From the IMG/VR virus record IMGVR_UViG_3300028610_000622, positions 1 to 41,522 of that record: 41,522 nucleotides of DNA. The stretch is one strand, 5' to 3'. The position numbers and the translations under genes are program-made. The notes under the pieces were generated by a model that was not told the DNA's origin, made no database searches, and worked only from the letters and a program-made list of their open reading frames with translations. Positions 2,116 through 14,154 of the stretch are shown here, in pieces (position 1 is the first letter of the stretch; each line of letters opens with the position of its first letter). Source of the stretch: a virus.

Positions 2116-2266
2116 TCTATCTCTCGGAATGTTCATTAGCGCGATCATGGTGGTGGGAATATGGGTGTGCCTCGTGATACACTCGCTCAACAATATCACG
2201 GATCGCATATGGCACGTCGTCTTGGAACTGCGGAAGCATAATGAACGGGAGGCCGGCGATGAGTGA
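2108..2266 (+). CDS. 52-residue membrane protein
   Basis: The frame ATG 2108 to TGA 2264-2266 encodes a protein whose residues 4-25 form one hydrophobic span (LSLGMFISAIMVVGIWVCLV). A charged helical tail follows and ends in REAGDE. It starts inside the upstream stop (ATGAGTAG), and its end overlaps the exonuclease start, so it is translationally coupled on both sides. The topology is that of a small inner-membrane protein; no function can be named. Confidence 0.5.
   Translation: MSSLSLGMFISAIMVVGIWVCLVIHSLNNITDRIWHVVLELRKHNEREAGDE
2249..2266 (+). repeat. Ribosome-binding/start module, copy 2 (ends in EAGDE)
   Basis: Second copy of the 18-base joint at 2098-2115. It carries the ribosome binding site and ATG of the exonuclease gene and the last residues of the 52-residue membrane protein. 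Only one base differs, in the stop codon (TAG versus TGA). Confidence 0.7.
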
Positions 2267-3173
2267 CATACTACCGACGGAGGCCGAATGGCTGGCGGAA
2301 CGTAAAAAGGGACTCGGTGGCTCCGATGCCGCCGCTGCCCTGGGTGTCCCGACGTACAAGACGCCATACGAGTTGTGGGCCGACAAGGTGAGCCCCGGCG
2401 AAATCGAGCCGGACGCGGCCAAGCGGGAACTCTTCAGGTGGGGCCACCTAATGGAACAACCGATTGCCAAGGCGTTGGCCGAAGACACGGGGCGAAACGT
2501 AATGTTGTCGCAGCCATACGCGATTAGGCGCCATCCGACTTGCCCGATCATGTTTTGCACGCCTGACGCCATCCAGCGCGACGGTGATCGGGGTGGCCGA
2601 GTCGAGGGCGTTGGGATCGTCCAGATTAAGAACGTCGACGATCGCGTCGCGTGGGCATGGAAAGAGGGCCCACCGCTGGACGTCGAGGTCCAGATACAAC
2701 ACGAGATGGAATGTACGTCCACGAAGTGGGGTACGATAGCCGCGCTAATCGGCAAGAGCGACTTCCGGTATTACGACGTCGAGTACGATCCGGACTTCGT
2801 CAAGGCCATGATGGCCACCGAGGCCAAGTTCTGGCAGCGGGTGGTCGACCACGATCCGCCACCGCTTGACGGCACGTCGCCTGAGACCTACGCCCGGGTG
2901 CTCAGGCAATTACATCCGCAAGACTCCGGCGAGACGATATCGTTGACGCTCGAAGTGGAAGAAGTAGGCGACCGGCTTTTGGAAGTAAAGGCGGAGATCA
3001 AGAACTTGGCGGACCTCAAGACTTCACTAGAAAACGAAATTAAACAAGCGCTGGGGGATGCGACCTTCGGCACGTTACCAGGAGGAGGTAAGTACTCATG
3101 GAAAACAACGGAATGCAAGGGGTACACGGTCAAGGCGACCCAGCAGAGGACGTTGCGGAGGCTCAAGAAGTAA
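2259..3173 (+). CDS. YqaJ-type viral recombinase / lambda-exonuclease-family nuclease
   Basis: This 304-residue protein is expected to digest one strand of DNA ends 5' to 3' to feed phage recombination. The family order is visible: an N-terminal RKKGLGGSDAAAALG (residues 16-30), GHLMEQPIA with the conserved Glu66, CTPDAI with Asp103, the catalytic strand VQIKN (Gln122, Lys124), and VEVQIQHEM in place of the usual QVQHQM helix. A Gln replaces the usual Glu of the (D/E)xK motif, an uncommon but known variation in PD-(D/E)xK nucleases. The last 70 residues are a coiled-coil tail. Start ATG 2259 is chosen because it follows GGGAGGCCGGCG; upstream ATG 2241 has no site. Its 3' end overlaps the annealing-protein gene by 76 nt, the classic pairing for a SynExo recombination module. 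Confidence 0.85.
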   Translation: MSDILPTEAEWLAERKKGLGGSDAAAALGVPTYKTPYELWADKVSPGEIEPDAAKRELFRWGHLMEQPIAKALAEDTGRNVMLSQPYAIRRHPTCPIMFCTPDAIQRDGDRGGRVEGVGIVQIKNVDDRVAWAWKEGPPLDVEVQIQHEMECTSTKWGTIAALIGKSDFRYYDVEYDPDFVKAMMATEAKFWQRVVDHDPPPLDGTSPETYARVLRQLHPQDSGETISLTLEVEEVGDRLLEVKAEIKNLADLKTSLENEIKQALGDATFGTLPGGGKYSWKTTECKGYTVKATQQRTLRRLKK

Positions 3174-4141
3174 GCGCGACAACCGGCCTGCTCGACCAAG
3201 TGATGGATGCCACCATCCCAGAGGACTATCGGAACGTAGTTGATCCTGGTCGGTTTAAGCAGGTATGGCGGGCGGCCACGCTCTATTCTAAGTCTGAAAT
3301 GGTGCCCAAACGATTCCAGGCGAGGTTTGCCGAGCCCGGGCAGGACAGAATTTCGGACTGTTTCGTCGTGATTGACACGGCTATGCGGCTAAAGATCAAC
3401 ATTATGTTGGCTTTTCAGCAACTATACGTCGTCCATGGCACCCCGTCGATGGGCGCTCAACTTGCGATCGCCTTAGCGAATAGATCGGAAGCGATAGACG
3501 GCCGCATACACTTCGAGCTGACCGGCGAAGGCGGAACACGGGCATGCCGTGCCTACGCAACGGATGATACCGGTACGAAGATTGATCTGACTGTGGATAT
3601 GGCGCTGGCGAATAAGTCAGGATGGACCAAGCCACGAGGTAAGAGCGGTATGATCCCGCTGTGGGTCACAAACCCAGACCTCATGCTACGGTACCGGTCG
3701 GCTACCTATTTGATTCGCACGCATTGCCCGGAGGTTCAAATGGGGTTACCCACCGACGATGAGGTAGAGGATATGGATGAGCCCAAGGCGATACCCGCCA
3801 CGCCGAAGAGTCTCGGCGAACTAACCGAGCGGCTGAACGCACCGGCGGTAGACGTGGAGTCCGAACCGGAGGACATCCTGACGCCCAAGGGCCAGGCCGT
3901 CGCGGCGGAGGCACCGGCAGACGAGACGCTAAAGGCAGCAAACAAGCCCGACCCCGTGATCTGGATGGCAGAGCTTGAGGAAGCCTTTGGCGCCGCGAAG
4001 ACCACTGAGGAAGTGATGGCTCTATGCGACCAGGGCAAGGCCTTCATTAAGGAACTTGGTGGCTCACAGAAGACATATGCCGGCAACGTGGAGACCTGGG
4101 ATAAGAAGGCACATCACCGAATCGCGGACAAGGATATTTAA
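3098..4141 (+). CDS. Probable RecT-like single-strand annealing protein
   Basis: This 347-residue protein has ATG 3098 nine bases after GGAGGAGG, inside the end of the exonuclease gene. Residues about 50-230 form the conserved core: FKQVWRAATLYSKSEMVPK, a block containing DTAMRLKINIMLAFQQLYVV, then GTPSMGAQLAIALANRS and PDLMLRYRSATYLIRTHCPE. This arrangement occurs in phage proteins encoded beside exonucleases and regarded as RecT/Bet-like annealing proteins. The C-terminal 110 residues are acidic, low-complexity and probably flexible. The expected role is annealing complementary strands with the upstream exonuclease. Family assignment is by pattern and neighbourhood only. Confidence 0.65.
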   Translation: MENNGMQGVHGQGDPAEDVAEAQEVSATTGLLDQVMDATIPEDYRNVVDPGRFKQVWRAATLYSKSEMVPKRFQARFAEPGQDRISDCFVVIDTAMRLKINIMLAFQQLYVVHGTPSMGAQLAIALANRSEAIDGRIHFELTGEGGTRACRAYATDDTGTKIDLTVDMALANKSGWTKPRGKSGMIPLWVTNPDLMLRYRSATYLIRTHCPEVQMGLPTDDEVEDMDEPKAIPATPKSLGELTERLNAPAVDVESEPEDILTPKGQAVAAEAPADETLKAANKPDPVIWMAELEEAFGAAKTTEEVMALCDQGKAFIKELGGSQKTYAGNVETWDKKAHHRIADKDI

Positions 4142-5104: not shown

Positions 5105-5199
5105 AGCCTTTGCTCCCCGTCGCCGGCCAGATAACCAATGAGAGAGACTACTGTCCGGCGGCGGGTTTGCTATAAGTGAAAGGGAGGTGAGACGATGGA
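5102..5199 (+). repeat. Repeat element A, copy 1 (hairpin plus ribosome binding site)
   Basis: This is about 98 bases, repeated at 5479-5571. It holds an 11-bp stem, CCCGTCGCCGG (5116-5126) with CCGGCGGCGGG (5155-5165), containing one GU pair. The stem is followed by TTT, then TATAAGTGAAAGGGAGGTGAGACG and the ATG of the next gene. The hairpin could act as a weak terminator or attenuator, or as a structure setting access to the ribosome binding site. It begins exactly at the stop of the upstream gene. Confidence 0.75.
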
Positions 5200-5401
5200 A
5201 AATATTACCCGTGTAAAACCCACCAGGTTGCAGCTCAATGTGTGTCTTCCAAGAGCACTCTGGGCGCGAATGAGGCAACGGGACGATATCAATTGGCAAG
5301 CGGTTTGTCGCAACGCAATTGAGGTTGTACTGGGAGACGCCAAGCGGCTAGAGGGTCAACCGGGTGAAGCCGAAGAGCCCGATAACGCAGCGGCCCCGTA
5401 A
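5195..5401 (+). CDS. Small ribbon-helix-helix-like protein
   Basis: This 68-residue protein starts at ATG 5195 after AAAGGGAGGTGAG in element A. It has the layout of a ribbon-helix-helix DNA-binding protein: a strand TRLQLNVCLP, helix RALWARMRQRDD, then NWQAVCRNAIEVVLG. The C-terminal tail (GEAEEPDNAAAP) is encoded by element B, so the end of the protein is supplied by the repeat. It may repress its own cassette, but no operator is visible. Confidence 0.6.
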   Translation: MENITRVKPTRLQLNVCLPRALWARMRQRDDINWQAVCRNAIEVVLGDAKRLEGQPGEAEEPDNAAAP

Positions 5402-5478: not shown

Positions 5479-5571
5479 TGAAGCCTTTGCTCCCCGTCGC
5501 CGGTCCGACAACCAAGAGAACACGGTCCGGCGGCGGGTTTACTATAAGGGAAAGGGAGGTGAGACGATGGA
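5479..5571 (+). repeat. Repeat element A, copy 2 (hairpin plus ribosome binding site)
   Basis: Second copy of element A. The same 11-bp stem lies at 5493-5503 and 5527-5537 with a shorter loop (23 rather than 28 bases), followed by TTT and an AAAGGGAGGTGAGACG site before ATG 5567. Identity to copy 1 is highest in the stem arms and the ribosome binding site, which suggests these parts are under selection. Confidence 0.75.
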
Positions 5572-5752
5572 CAACGACGGCAAAAAGATAGGATGTGTTG
5601 ATTGTCATTGGTGGGATCCTTACCCAGCGGATAGTAACGGAGTGTATGGCCAGTGCCGGTATAATCCACCGATCGCATGCCCAGAGGATTCGGGTGCCCT
5701 TTGGCCGATAGTTACGCCTTTTGACTGGTGTCGGCAGTTCTTAATCGGGTGA
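5567..5752 (+). CDS. Small Cys/Trp-rich protein (phage CxxC family)
   Basis: This 61-residue protein has CVDCHWWD near the N terminus, GQCRYNPP in the middle and WPIVTPFDWCRQF at the end. The pattern CxxC...GxCRxxxP...WP...WC is common in small phage proteins and probably binds zinc or an iron-sulfur cluster. It is the second gene of the duplicated cassette: element A supplies its ribosome binding site, and element B' begins at its last codons. It is unrelated to the gene in the equivalent place in cassette 1. Confidence 0.7.
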   Translation: MDNDGKKIGCVDCHWWDPYPADSNGVYGQCRYNPPIACPEDSGALWPIVTPFDWCRQFLIG

Positions 5753-6596: not shown

Positions 6597-7385
6597 ATGC
6601 CGATAGGCTACATCAAGATCGATCGACGGCTGCTAGACTCGGCCTGCTGGCAGGACGCGGAGTGCGGCCACCTCTGGGTCGAGCTGTTGTTGAGGGCCCG
6701 ATTCTCGGACGGGTGGGAGAAGGTCCGAAGCGGCAGCGGACACCGAACAATCAAGCTAGCGAGGGGGCAGGTGATATTCGGTCGCGGGTCATACGCGAAG
6801 AGGCTCAACCAGAAGGAAGGCACCGTCCGGAAGAACCTCGCTCTGCTGGCCAAATGGGGGAACATTACAACGGACACTACCAGTAGACCAACGATCGTAA
6901 CTATCTGCAACTACAACACTTGGCAGGACAGGCAAGAGGACAGCCGCCAGTTGGGCGCCAGTGATGCGCCAGTGATGCGCCAGTTGGGCGCCAGTGATGC
7001 GCCAGGAAAGAAGAAGGGAAAGAAGGGAAAGAAGGTAGAAGAAACACTACAGCAACAGCCGTTGCTGACGGCGGTGGGCGTCGATGCGATTGCAGAAGAG
7101 TTCAACCAATGTGAGGGGGTTAAGCCCTTTGTGCAGCTCAGCCCGAGCCGGCGGCGGATCATGGTGGCCAAACTGAGGGACCCCGCCTGGCTTGGGCTGT
7201 ACCGCCAAGCGTTGGCCAAGTTCCCGCTCATCTATCGCGGCAAGGATGGCGACTGGGAGCCGGACCTTGACTGGCTGTTGAAGGATGACAACGTGTTGAA
7301 GCTTGTGGAAACTACGTATTTTGACAAAGTACATGGGAGTACCGATAATGGACCAGCAGACTACAGCGGAGCCGCGGATATCTGA
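6597..7385 (+). CDS. Phage replication initiator (O/DnaD-like)
   Basis: This 262-residue protein has three parts. Residues 1-105 are a winged-helix N-terminal domain of the phage replisome-organiser type (GYIKIDRRLLDSACWQD, RGQVIFGRGSYAKRL, then VRKNLALLAKWGNI). Residues 110-150 are a low-complexity linker with a duplicated RQLGASDAP and a Lys/Gly stretch. The C-terminal domain ends in DGDWEPDLDWLLKDDNVLK, a signature seen at the end of many such proteins. It is expected to bind the phage origin and recruit the helicase loader encoded next. The linker DNA is an array of 11-bp repeats, so the origin itself may lie inside this gene. Confidence 0.75.
   Translation: MPIGYIKIDRRLLDSACWQDAECGHLWVELLLRARFSDGWEKVRSGSGHRTIKLARGQVIFGRGSYAKRLNQKEGTVRKNLALLAKWGNITTDTTSRPTIVTICNYNTWQDRQEDSRQLGASDAPVMRQLGASDAPGKKKGKKGKKVEETLQQQPLLTAVGVDAIAEEFNQCEGVKPFVQLSPSRRRIMVAKLRDPAWLGLYRQALAKFPLIYRGKDGDWEPDLDWLLKDDNVLKLVETTYFDKVHGSTDNGPADYSGAADI
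6945..7005 (+). repeat. Iteron-like array inside the replication gene (candidate origin)
   Basis: Five tandem 11-bp units are directly readable. CGCCAGTTGGG occurs at 6945 and 6978; CGCCAGTGATG occurs at 6956, 6967 and 6989. A partial sixth unit, CGCCAG, starts at 7000. They are followed by a purine-rich tract (about 7005-7052, GGAAAGAAGAAGGGAAAG and on). An 11-bp period places every unit on one face of the helix. In lambda the origin iterons likewise lie within gene O. Origin function is inferred. Confidence 0.6.
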
Positions 7386-8067
7386 CGATCGTTATCGCGA
7401 GCTAACCAGAAAGCATTGCGCAAGAACGCTGACGGATTCTGAGCGGTGCGAGTTATTTGGCGTCAAGACGCCGTTTGAACGGTTTGCGTTGGAGGCTGGC
7501 GCACGATACGTCGGCCTCAACTGGGACAACTTCAAGTGCGACCACACAGGGCAGACGGAGGTTGTCCAAGGCCTCAAGCATTACGCCCGCCGGCTACAGA
7601 GTAGCGTTAACAAAGGGGAGGGAGTGGTCTTGTTTGGCCGCCCGGGAACCGGCAAAGACCTCCTGCTATCAATCCTCGCGCGGCTCTTTGGGTACAACGT
7701 AGCGTTCCAAGACGGCACCCGGTTGTGGGCGTCCTTGACAGAAGCCATACTTGACGACAGCTCGCAGGTCGACATACTCTCGCGGCTGGCAACCGCGACC
7801 GTGTTGTATCTAGCCGACCCGGTACCAGGTCGGAAGGAACTCACGCGATTTCAGCGCGAGAAGCTACACCACGTTTTGGATGAGCGGTATCGACATCACC
7901 GACCGGTCTGGTGTTCGTTGAATGCGAGAGACAAGTCTGACGCGGAGCGACTGCTAGGCCAGAACGCCTGGGATCGTCTGAAGGATGGCGCGGTTGTGTG
8001 TAACTGCAACTGGCCCAGCCACCGCAAGCCGTTGCGAGCGTGGGACGGAACCAAGTGGGTGGAATAG
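7348..8067 (+). CDS. DnaC-like AAA+ helicase loader
   Basis: This 239-residue protein starts at ATG 7348, eight bases after GGGAG and overlapping the initiator gene by 38 bases. Motifs: Walker A FGRPGTGKD (residues 96-104), a Walker B-like strand TVLYLADP (151-158) in which the second acidic residue is missing, and a sensor-1 region WCSLNARD with Asn192. DnaC-family loaders place replicative helicase on DNA opened by the initiator, and the gene order fits this. The weak Walker B could mean slow ATP hydrolysis, which is an inference. Confidence 0.75.
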   Translation: MDQQTTAEPRISDDRYRELTRKHCARTLTDSERCELFGVKTPFERFALEAGARYVGLNWDNFKCDHTGQTEVVQGLKHYARRLQSSVNKGEGVVLFGRPGTGKDLLLSILARLFGYNVAFQDGTRLWASLTEAILDDSSQVDILSRLATATVLYLADPVPGRKELTRFQREKLHHVLDERYRHHRPVWCSLNARDKSDAERLLGQNAWDRLKDGAVVCNCNWPSHRKPLRAWDGTKWVE

Positions 8068-11794: not shown

Positions 11795-11974
11795 ATGGGA
11801 GGTTTCATTAGGTTGCACATCTTACCTCCTAACTGGTGGCCATGGGTAAGCAAGAAGGCCAGTGAGGCACGCGCCTTGGTACTCCTAAACATGGCCAGGG
11901 AAGAGCGAAGGCTACGGTTCGCTGCCGAAAGAAAACTCAAGAAAACTACCCAACCAGAAAGCCCAGAGTCATGA
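11795..11974 (+). CDS. Hypothetical basic helical protein, 59 aa
   Basis: ATG 11795 is preceded by CGGAGAG at good spacing; ATG 11774 in the same frame is also possible. After an N-terminal hydrophobic/aromatic stretch (GGFIRLHILPPNWWPWV) it is a strongly basic helix (AREERRLRFAAERKLKK). The stop overlaps the protease start (ATGA). It might be an amphipathic membrane-active or regulatory peptide, but this is not shown. Confidence 0.5.
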   Translation: MGGFIRLHILPPNWWPWVSKKASEARALVLLNMAREERRLRFAAERKLKKTTQPESPES

Positions 11975-13602
11975 GAGTGTTTATCCTAACAGTGATCGCC
12001 CTGCTGGCCATGGCGGCCGCCGTGTTCGGTGACATGTCGACCTGCGTTGACGCAACGTGCCGGGTATCCTGTCCCGGCGGACGCGGTAGCGGGGTCGTAA
12101 TCTCCGCCACCGCCGACCGCGTGCTGGTGCTGAGCAACGCCCACGTAGTCGACGCGCCGAGCCCCGAGTGTGAGTTCTGGAGTCACGGTCATCAGAGCCT
12201 ACCGGTCACGGGAAGCGTTGTGATGCGCAACCCGTCTATCGACGTCGCAGTTATCGCTATCCCGACAGCAGCCTTTGGCGGGCGAGTACCCCCGGCCATA
12301 CCGATAGCACGCGACATGCCGGCAGCCCGTGAGACGGTGACATCGATAGGATGTGCCGACGGTAATTGGGCCACGGGATGGAAGGGTCATCTGCTCGGGT
12401 ATCCCGATGCCAGCCAGATGCGCTTCCTACCCAGCCCAGCCGGCGGGCGATCGGGGTCCGCATTGTTCAACGCGGACGCTACGGAGATTGTCGGTCTGAT
12501 TCGAGCCAGAACACCAGACGACCGGGAAGGCATAGCCATCCCGGCACCACGCATCTTGGCTGCCCTCGGGCACCAGGAACCCTCGGCTCAGCGCATGGAC
12601 GCGCGGGCCGGGGCTATTGAGGTTCCCCTTCGGGGGCTTGACGCCTCAGCCAGCCTTTTGGACCAGCCCGCAACTTGTGCGGGCTGGCGCGCACAAGTTG
12701 CGCGCGGGCTGGATGGGGCGGTTTTGACTCAGGTATGCCCACCCGGAGGCTGCCCGGATGGCAACTGCCAAGGTGGCAGTATCCTGAACCCGTTCGGCTC
12801 GGGCCGCGTCTTGCCGTACCGTCAGGAGCAGGACCAATACAACGGGCTGCAGAACGGCCGGATCGGACGGCTGGAGAACATCTATCCGACCCTGCCGGTA
12901 CCCGGCCCGGCGCCCAGTGCGCGGCCGATGGTCAAGGTCGACATGCAGCCCGTGGTCGATGCCGTCAACTCGGTGGGCGACAAGCTGGATGGGTTCGGCA
13001 CCGCGTTTGAGTCGATCGACCAGAAGCTGGACGTGATAATCGACCAGACTGCCGAGCCGCTGCACGGAACCGGCTATCTCCGACCGCCCGAGCCGGACGA
13101 CGGCACGATCGATAATCCGGCCGTTCTGGACGCTATTGACGCGACCAACGATCAGGTAACCGCGCTGGCCAAGATCACGCAGGCCGCGCTCGGCGACCGT
13201 GACACGCTTATGCAGCGGATGCAAGAGCGGTTGGATAAGGTCGAGGCAGAGAACCCGGAGGCGTCGGCGTTGGAACTGGCCAAGCTGTACGCGAAAGACT
13301 ACGCCGGCGACAAGGGCGGCGAGCTAGGGTGGACCGGTGGCGAGATGTTGGCGGGTGTAGCAGGCATCGGTGGGATCGGAGCTCTGGTACTCAGTATGAT
13401 GGGCTGGCTGATCGGGCGCGACATTGGAGACAGGATTAAAACCGGTGACCCGCTGATGATCGAGAAGCTTATGTCCCGATTTGGCGGCGGAGGTCAGCAG
13501 CAGGCAGCACCGAACATCACATACGTCACACCACCCGCACAGGCGCCGCCTATACAGCAGGCACCCGCCCAAGAGCCACCCGCGGAAACCCCCACGAAGT
13601 AG
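11971..13602 (+). CDS. Secreted trypsin-like serine protease with C-terminal membrane anchor
   Basis: This 543-residue protein has a signal peptide (residues 1-20, MRVFILTVIALLAMAAAVFG). A chymotrypsin-fold domain follows, with His58 in VLSNAHVV, Asp91 in SIDVAVIAI and Ser161 in GGRSGSALF. Residues 255-320 are Pro/Gly-rich with a Cys cluster (CPPGGCPDGNC). Residues 325-440 are helical with coiled-coil tendency, 459-482 form a hydrophobic span (MLAGVAGIGGIGALVLSMMG), and the end is Pro/Gln-rich. The product should cross the cytoplasmic membrane and stay anchored. Such a protease is unusual in a phage; it could attack envelope proteins for lysis or exclusion, which is inference. Confidence 0.8.
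   Translation: MRVFILTVIALLAMAAAVFGDMSTCVDATCRVSCPGGRGSGVVISATADRVLVLSNAHVVDAPSPECEFWSHGHQSLPVTGSVVMRNPSIDVAVIAIPTAAFGGRVPPAIPIARDMPAARETVTSIGCADGNWATGWKGHLLGYPDASQMRFLPSPAGGRSGSALFNADATEIVGLIRARTPDDREGIAIPAPRILAALGHQEPSAQRMDARAGAIEVPLRGLDASASLLDQPATCAGWRAQVARGLDGAVLTQVCPPGGCPDGNCQGGSILNPFGSGRVLPYRQEQDQYNGLQNGRIGRLENIYPTLPVPGPAPSARPMVKVDMQPVVDAVNSVGDKLDGFGTAFESIDQKLDVIIDQTAEPLHGTGYLRPPEPDDGTIDNPAVLDAIDATNDQVTALAKITQAALGDRDTLMQRMQERLDKVEAENPEASALELAKLYAKDYAGDKGGELGWTGGEMLAGVAGIGGIGALVLSMMGWLIGRDIGDRIKTGDPLMIEKLMSRFGGGGQQQAAPNITYVTPPAQAPPIQQAPAQEPPAETPTK
12663..12702. repeat. Two overlapping, mutually exclusive perfect hairpins inside the protease gene
   Basis: Hairpin I is a 10-bp perfect stem, CCAGCCCGCA (12663-12672) with TGCGGGCTGG (12678-12687), loop ACTTG. 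Hairpin II is a 13-bp perfect stem, CGCAACTTGTGCG (12669-12681) with CGCACAAGTTGCG (12690-12702), loop of 8. They share bases 12669-12681 and cannot form together. TTTT follows at 12721. The segment encodes the junction after the protease domain. Confidence 0.7.
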
Positions 13603-13609
13603 GTGAGCG

Positions 13610-13813
13610 ATGACCGACGAAGATCCCACGCTCACGGCCATCAACGACTTGGCCAAGAAGCTTGACCCGAACCTGCTATTCCTCAATGGCAACGGCCGCC
13701 GGCCAGCCTCCGAGAGATTGGGGCGTGTCGAGTGTGTGACCTATGGGACGTGCGCAGTAGTTTTGGTGTGCATCGGCGCGATCGTGACGTGGGGCCTGGG
13801 GTACCTGACATGA
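13610..13813 (+). CDS. Small C-terminally anchored membrane protein (holin-like candidate)
   Basis: This 67-residue protein follows the protease after seven bases, with GTAGGTGAGCG before ATG 13610. The N-terminal 40 residues are polar, and residues 45-64 form a membrane span (YGTCAVVLVCIGAIVTWGLG). A single C-terminal span with a cytoplasmic head matches some small holin-like or spanin-like proteins, and the neighbourhood fits a lysis cluster. The identity is not proven. Its stop overlaps the next start. Confidence 0.5.
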   Translation: MTDEDPTLTAINDLAKKLDPNLLFLNGNGRRPASERLGRVECVTYGTCAVVLVCIGAIVTWGLGYLT

Positions 13814-14154
13814 CAGACGTAAGAACGCCTCCGGGTTGGCTCCTATCGTGGTCAGGGTGGCCAATGACGGTACGGAGGACTGAGCCGATGACACTATGGT
13901 TGTGCGGACAATGGCGATCGGTTACAGCAACAGGAGGCGTCGCATGGGACTTTCAGGGCATCTTTGCCACAGAGGACGAAGGCGTCGCATGGGACTTTCA
14001 GGGCATCTTTGCCACAGAGGACGAAGCCGTCGCGGCGTGCAGGAGTAAGTGGTACTTCATCACTCCGGTGGTACTTGGTCAAGAGTACCCGGACGATATG
14101 GTGGAGTTTAAGAATGTCCGGTACCCCGTAAGTACCGACGTTATCAATACTTAG
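13810..14154 (+). CDS. Hypothetical protein with a duplicated 15-residue block
   Basis: This 114-residue protein starts at ATG 13810 (ATGA overlap); ATG 13888 behind GGAGGACTGAGCCG is an alternative. The core GVAWDFQGIFATEDE is present twice in tandem and is followed by AVAACRSKWYFITPVVLGQE. Without the duplication it resembles small phage proteins with a WxFQGxFxTxxxAVxAC pattern. The duplication is in frame, so the protein may still fold with an extra strand-helix unit. Function unknown. Confidence 0.6.
   Translation: MTDVRTPPGWLLSWSGWPMTVRRTEPMTLWLCGQWRSVTATGGVAWDFQGIFATEDEGVAWDFQGIFATEDEAVAACRSKWYFITPVVLGQEYPDDMVEFKNVRYPVSTDVINT
13936..14025 (+). repeat. Perfect 45-bp tandem duplication
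   Basis: Bases 13936-13980 and 13981-14025 are identical, beginning GGCGTCGCATGGGACTTTCA and ending GAGGACGAA. Perfect identity indicates a recent slippage or unequal-exchange event. It adds exactly 15 codons. Confidence 0.95.

Follow-up and report, generated by a model that had tools for sequence, protein, structure and literature searches.

The initiator gene and its neighbors

The window analyzed here is the whole 41,522-nucleotide stretch of IMG/VR virus record IMGVR_UViG_3300028610_000622 (positions 1 to 41,522), in which a putative replication initiator gene of the O/DnaD-like kind lies at 6597–7385 on the plus strand. The open reading frame codes for 262 amino acids, and residues 3–149 match phrog_2514 ("DnaD-like helicase loader") with an E value of 6e-20; an HMM that we built for the winged-helix (WH) domain of the family recognizes the protein at E 1e-35, the window protein being among the seeds of that HMM. 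An AlphaFold2 model, built on a 63-sequence alignment, predicts an N-terminal WH domain (residues 1 to ~111), a disordered linker (116–160), and a helical C-terminal domain (159–245), with pLDDT values above 90 for most of residues 1–110 and below 50 for 116–160. We rejected "DnaD domain" as a Pfam assignment, there being no match in Pfam or NCBIfam, and a PDB sequence search with the family alignment returned weak GntR-like WH matches only, the best at E 0.003.

A helicase loader gene was predicted to lie just downstream, and a DnaC-like open reading frame (phrog_50, E 7e-15) is indeed found there at 7303–8067 on the plus strand, overlapping the end of the initiator gene. The frame opens at a TTG (7303) and contains internal ATGs, such that a shorter start is likely; its NCBIfam matches are of the DnaC/DnaI type and fall below the cut-off. 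A loader or a DnaB helicase also adjoins the initiator gene at four related loci (L181, L191, L297, and L218). Upstream of the initiator gene, at 2241–4141 on the same strand, are recombination genes coding for a YqaJ/RecE-like exonuclease (2241–3173) and a RecT-like annealing protein (3098–4141), and by these gene assignments the repeats described below sit in a replication and recombination gene cluster. The original prediction proposed looking for a turn in cumulative GC skew near position 7000, but the skew rises steadily through the site with no turn; it is uninformative here, as the identified genes all run one way.

Tandem repeats in the linker-coding segment

The putative iteron array spans 6945–7005 on the plus strand and starts 18 nt past the end of the WH-coding region, coding for residues 117–137, between the WH and C-terminal domains. 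The tandem 11-bp units first noticed in the linker-coding part of the gene were recovered both by TRF (6945–7005, period 11, 5.5 copies) and by a repeat search (unit spacings 11, 11, 11, and 11), and are more cleanly described as six CGCCAG cores at exact 11-bp spacing (6945, 6956, 6967, 6978, 6989, and 7000), with TTGGG or TGATG in between. There are five exact copies of the unit within the window, all of them in the array, which ranks second among the window's short-period repeats, behind a 15/30-bp repeat at 1–79. No inverted repeats were found in the array; the units are direct repeats of period 11. The 11-residue protein repeat that these units were said to force is real (RQLGASDAPVM/RQLGASDAPG), a by-product of three times 11 bp.

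Beyond the array come a 5-bp spacer, GAAAG (7006–7010), and a 9-bp purine ladder, AAGAAGGGA AAGAAGGGA AAGAAGGTA (7011–7037), both read on the plus strand, the ladder being a candidate strand-opening element. TRF reports 2.8 copies of AAGAAGGGA at 7011–7035 with a period of 9, and the predicted purine-rich tract behind the array is plainly present, in that a pure purine run of 32 nt at 7004–7035 is the longest in the window, where the next longest is 14 nt; the GC content of 7006–7047 is 40%, as against 60% for the whole window. The ladder codes for KKGKKGKK, following RQLGASDAP, and the residues encoded by iterons and ladder fall within the segment that AlphaFold2 predicts to be disordered. 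The end point first given for the feature, 7052, takes in both array and tract, but the array proper stops at 7005, the ladder running on to about 7037.

Similar arrays behind other WH domains

A tblastn search of phage records with the window protein matched 123 records, with Staphylococcus DnaD-like proteins at one end of the range and the HK620, HK022, and Sf6 O proteins at the other; all of the matches listed span only the N-terminal ~110–135 residues, and thus a part of the protein. No close relatives were found in viral or genome contigs, and conservation of the array is thus judged on divergent relatives, the window's own lineage having yielded none. The survey sample comprised 314 loci with the WH domain, reduced to 88 representatives sharing <70% identity, with hosts (by record titles) among the Firmicutes, Proteobacteria, Bacteroidota, Planctomycetota, Verrucomicrobiota, Elusimicrobia, Spirochaetota, Nitrospirota, and Chlorobi.

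The relatives first examined all carry a tandem repeat, with a period of 11 bp or close to it, right behind the WH domain. Among the 88 representatives, 73 have an 11-bp array straight after the WH domain, and in the 150 nt past the domain a period of 11 is the strongest in 56 of 86, with a period of 22 in four more. As controls, the WH coding region has period 11 as its top signal in none of the 88, and two other regions gave at most two matches, none at period 11. The other 15 representatives mostly have 12-bp, 23-bp, or interrupted arrays, and L311 alone is clearly without any; relatives keeping the protein and lacking the repeats, which were looked for because the original prediction had named them as evidence against it, thus come down to a single clear case. 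With a query limited to the WH domain, 60 of 72 representatives have an 11-bp array, and 63 of the 72 have a motif of fixed geometry that scores above every control.

This geometry extends past the array. The distance from the end of the array to the start of the 9-bp repeat is 5 bp at 28 loci, the mode by automatic calling, and the family ladder consists of AAGAATGNN repeats beginning 5 bp past the array. A matrix covering the last iteron, spacer, and ladder has the consensus RCAAnTGAMCA, then CAAAC, then AAGAATGNNAAGAATG; it scores above 8 in 74 of the 88 representatives, against maxima of 8.5 in 88 WH-coding controls and 3.0 in downstream controls. In the window, the best matrix site is at 6995, the expected place, and is the highest on both strands, but at 1.5 bits it barely exceeds the runner-up at 1.4 bits (6733). 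The window has the 11/5/9 geometry of the family in GC-rich and diverged letters (CGCCAG cores, GAAAG for the family's CAAAC spacer, and a AAGAAGGGA ladder), and intermediate GC-rich forms occur in L215 (GAACAGCTCGC repeats followed by AAGAAGG) and L203 (AAGAAGGGAAAGAATG), both being AAGAAGG variants. Judged by its layout, the window is a diverged member of the family. The original prediction understated the case: on the survey evidence the layout, with its fixed spacer and its second repeat, is shared widely, and the window array is one example of it.

A neutral origin of the repeats, in which slippage produced a functionless tandem repeat, accords with the way tandem arrays are known to expand and with the 66-bp differences among some HK620-type copies. 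It leaves unexplained why the same period recurs at the same place across phyla with unrelated unit sequences, why the 5-bp spacer is fixed, and why neighboring coding regions lack such repeats; the family survey makes it very unlikely, and we give it almost no credence.

We also approached the layout from the DNA side, by scanning IMG/VR with a query of DNA alone, the spacer-plus-ladder string CAAACAAGAATGNNAAGAATG. The scan returned at least 120 loci, and among the matches listed, 116 of 120 have a WH-family domain in the same open reading frame and 118 of 120 have an 11-, 22-, 12-, or 23-bp array directly upstream. The other four listed comprise three with 11-bp arrays and truncated or unresolved upstream frames, and one, L413, that codes for a different protein. 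In L413, which lacks a WH-family match, the same ACAAACAAGAATGGGAAGAATGGG ladder stands behind an AGAAG repeat of 5 bp, and the ladder may thus not be confined to the WH family.

Separately, three copies of CGCCAGTNNNG were found in IMG/VR at five loci (L439–L443), which we rejected as relatives of the window, as they have no WH family member and no convincing reading frame, and carry the core in both orientations. Clusters of the words TGCGCCAGT and ACTGGCGCA, which match the iteron word of the window, lie there in apparently non-coding DNA of environmental viral contigs; some are spaced at 11 bp, and both orientations occur.

Constraint on the repeats at the DNA level

Units of 11 bp do not divide evenly into codons, and the array therefore holds one DNA word in three reading frames, which argues that it is kept as DNA. 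Its 11-bp self-match score is 27.5, and none of 20,000 synonymous recodings, in which the peptide was left unchanged and codons were drawn by the phage's own codon usage, reached this value (mean 4.7, maximum 23); nor did any of 20,000 shuffles of codon order (maximum 11.5). The 11-bp array of the window is constrained at the DNA level, and not merely by its peptide. The same recoding test applied to relatives gives p≤0.05 for the 11-bp period in 73 of 85.

The ladder behaves differently in the recoding test, with p≤0.05 for the 9-bp period beyond the peptide at just 19 of 85 loci, and the period is locked to codons, AAGAATG being in frame in 121 of 129 cases. As the peptide accounts for most of this periodicity, we rejected it as proof that the DNA is under selection. 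The choice of codons within the ladder is strongly biased: where Lys precedes Asn in the linker, AAG is used at 157:21, as compared with 584:1172 for Lys in the rest of the genes (p 1e-47), and the Asn of these linker pairs is AAT at 166:12, as compared with 541:469 elsewhere (p 1e-27), p-values that are nominal as the sequences are related. This bias indicates that the ladder, too, is kept as DNA.

These results bear on whether the repeats are selected as protein, with a repetitive, flexible linker (RQLGASDAP, then KKGKKGKK) as the selected trait and the DNA period as a side effect. The in-frame ladder, its largely peptide-explained period, and the predicted disorder of the linker would all suit such a protein. 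Loss of the 11-bp period on synonymous recoding, in the window and its relatives alike, would not, as the period is out of step with the codons, and neither would the Lys and Asn codon bias in the ladder. For the 11-bp array, a protein-only explanation is refuted by the recoding result, and overall we consider selection as protein decidedly unlikely.

Iteron sequence and the WH domain

Natural recombinants indicate which part of the initiator may read the iterons. Across the family, iteron similarity tracks the identity of the WH domain (partial rho 0.37) and hardly that of the C-terminal domain (0.09). In Staphylococcus phages, HSA84-like and SA7-like genes share ~96–99% of the C-terminal domain and 32% of the WH domain, and their iterons differ; conversely, L269 and the HSA84 group are 93% identical in the WH domain and ~30% in the C-terminal domain, and the iteron is kept, the L269 group being essentially one event. 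The iterons adjoin the WH-coding region, and linkage alone could account for part of the correlation. From these comparisons it follows that iteron sequence probably goes with the WH domain, not with the C-terminal domain.

Comparison with known systems

The closest known counterparts are the O genes of the HK620/Sf6/HK022 type, which code for a homologous WH domain (tblastn E about 1e-5, and a member by hmmsearch) and, as in the window, have 11-bp direct repeats inside the initiator gene from right behind that domain. In HK620 and Sf6, a rep_origin is annotated inside the O gene exactly at the place of the array. This type differs from the window in having two short 11-bp clusters rather than one array, in ending with a ATAATATAAATAA-like tract instead of AAGAATGNN or AAGAAGGGA, and in being followed by a DnaB-type helicase gene, where the window has a DnaC-type loader. 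Together with the family survey, these annotations support the candidate origin first proposed within the initiator gene, a function that we infer. Two HK620-type O genes (L143 and L146) are ~66 bp longer or shorter than usual; as 66 bp is six times 11 and also 22 codons, this is consistent with a change in array length that keeps both phase and frame.

The TubR–tubC, ParR, and RepA_N plasmid proteins bind tandem iterons that repeat roughly every helical turn or at longer intervals; their sites are not known to fall among the linker codons of the gene that encodes the binding protein. A Foldseek search with the WH model gave weak, generic WH matches only, including TubR (3m8f) and the initiator domain of pSK41 RepA (4pt7), neither of them significant (E 0.06–0.1) and both scoring like many other WH proteins; many of the neighbors are transcriptional repressors. 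The last observation, and the general suitability of a WH protein with tandem sites for regulation, would fit an operator through which the protein regulates or represses the replication operon from within its own gene, with replication starting elsewhere. However, the array lies ~350 bp inside the gene and not at its start, in relatives as well as in the window, it is coupled to a purine ladder at fixed spacing, and origins are annotated at the array site in the family members HK620 and Sf6. We consider an operator unlikely, and favor an origin of replication.

Intragenic origins are described in the literature for lambda, Stx phages, SPP1, and 80alpha. Lambda has iterons in the linker-coding part of gene O, followed by an A/purine-rich strand-opening region, with the loader gene P next (PMC5043065), and the window shares these features, with iterons between the domains, a low-GC purine tract alongside, and an adjacent helicase loader. 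The original prediction saw in lambda the same plan with a different unit sequence; lambda iterons are imperfect palindromes of 18–19 bp, about two turns apart and bound by dimers, whereas those of the window are 11-bp direct repeats. Lambda O gave no hmmsearch match to the WH family even with filters off, and we rejected membership of the window initiator in the lambda O family on account of the missing homology and the period-11 direct repeats without inverted repeats. In 80alpha, ORF20 and ORF21 suffice to support autonomous replication, and complementation of ORF20 in trans fails; the origin lies, as proposed for the window, within the initiator gene, with direct repeats and an AT-rich element (PMC5499656), but the repeats are of 15/30 bp and ORF20 does not match the WH model significantly (E 0.018). 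SPP1 gp38 acts at oriL, which is located in gene 38 and, compared by its published description only, also combines direct repeats with an AT-rich element in an initiator gene (PMC6316719).

A model for an intragenic origin

We propose that 6945–7037 is very probably the replication origin of this phage, a lambda-like origin lying within the initiator gene. The protein encoded by that gene would bind through its WH domain, one monomer to each 11-bp iteron, and the one-turn period would align successive monomers along roughly one face of the helix, forming a filament. The strands would open at the ladder, which would lie a defined distance beyond the filament's end, and one strand would be held there; the C-terminal domain and the neighboring DnaC-like loader would next bring the replicative helicase into place. 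The DNA signal would largely dictate the sequence of the linker peptide, which would serve as a disordered tether.

More speculatively, and with some doubt on our part, the AAGAATGNN/AAGAAGGGA ladder might be a sequence-specific strand-opening code, in which the last iteron-bound initiator, 5 bp away, moves onto one strand in 9-nt steps. Such a code would be a phage counterpart of the DnaA-box/DnaA-trio, common to very many phages across bacterial phyla and written within the linker codons of the initiator.

The concept of an intragenic origin is already known, and the 11-bp, 5-bp, and 9-bp variant may be new; a literature search, mostly of open-access papers, did not find this layout, and an earlier description may exist. 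If the model holds, it offers a sequence rule for pinpointing a probable origin with single-base precision across a broad class of phages and prophages, by finding the WH domain and looking directly downstream. Each initiator domain would come paired with its cognate 11-bp site, making the recognition code, the one-turn spacing, and strand opening testable with natural variants. It would also be a case of heavy overprinting, with the linker peptide of an initiator largely dictated by a DNA signal carried in its gene.

Other features of the window

Several further features were noted elsewhere in the window. The 15/30-bp tandem repeat at 1–79, at the very start of the record, consists of 5.3 copies of CGACCTCAGCAGTGC. 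Between 5102 and 5862 a module of ~380 bp is duplicated, with matching pieces of 37, 60, 40, and 70 nt at 80–98% identity; in each copy a small open reading frame (5195–5401 and 5567–5752) comes with a GC-rich leader hairpin and the ribosome-binding region GGGAGGTGAGACG, and the whole looks like a duplicated leader-plus-small-gene cassette. The open reading frame at 11971–13602 codes for a 543-amino acid protein with a trypsin-like peptidase domain (Pfam Trypsin_2, E 1e-11), here in a phage genome. A 45-bp tandem repeat (13935–14033, 2.2 copies, 98% matches) lies inside the open reading frame at 13732–14154.
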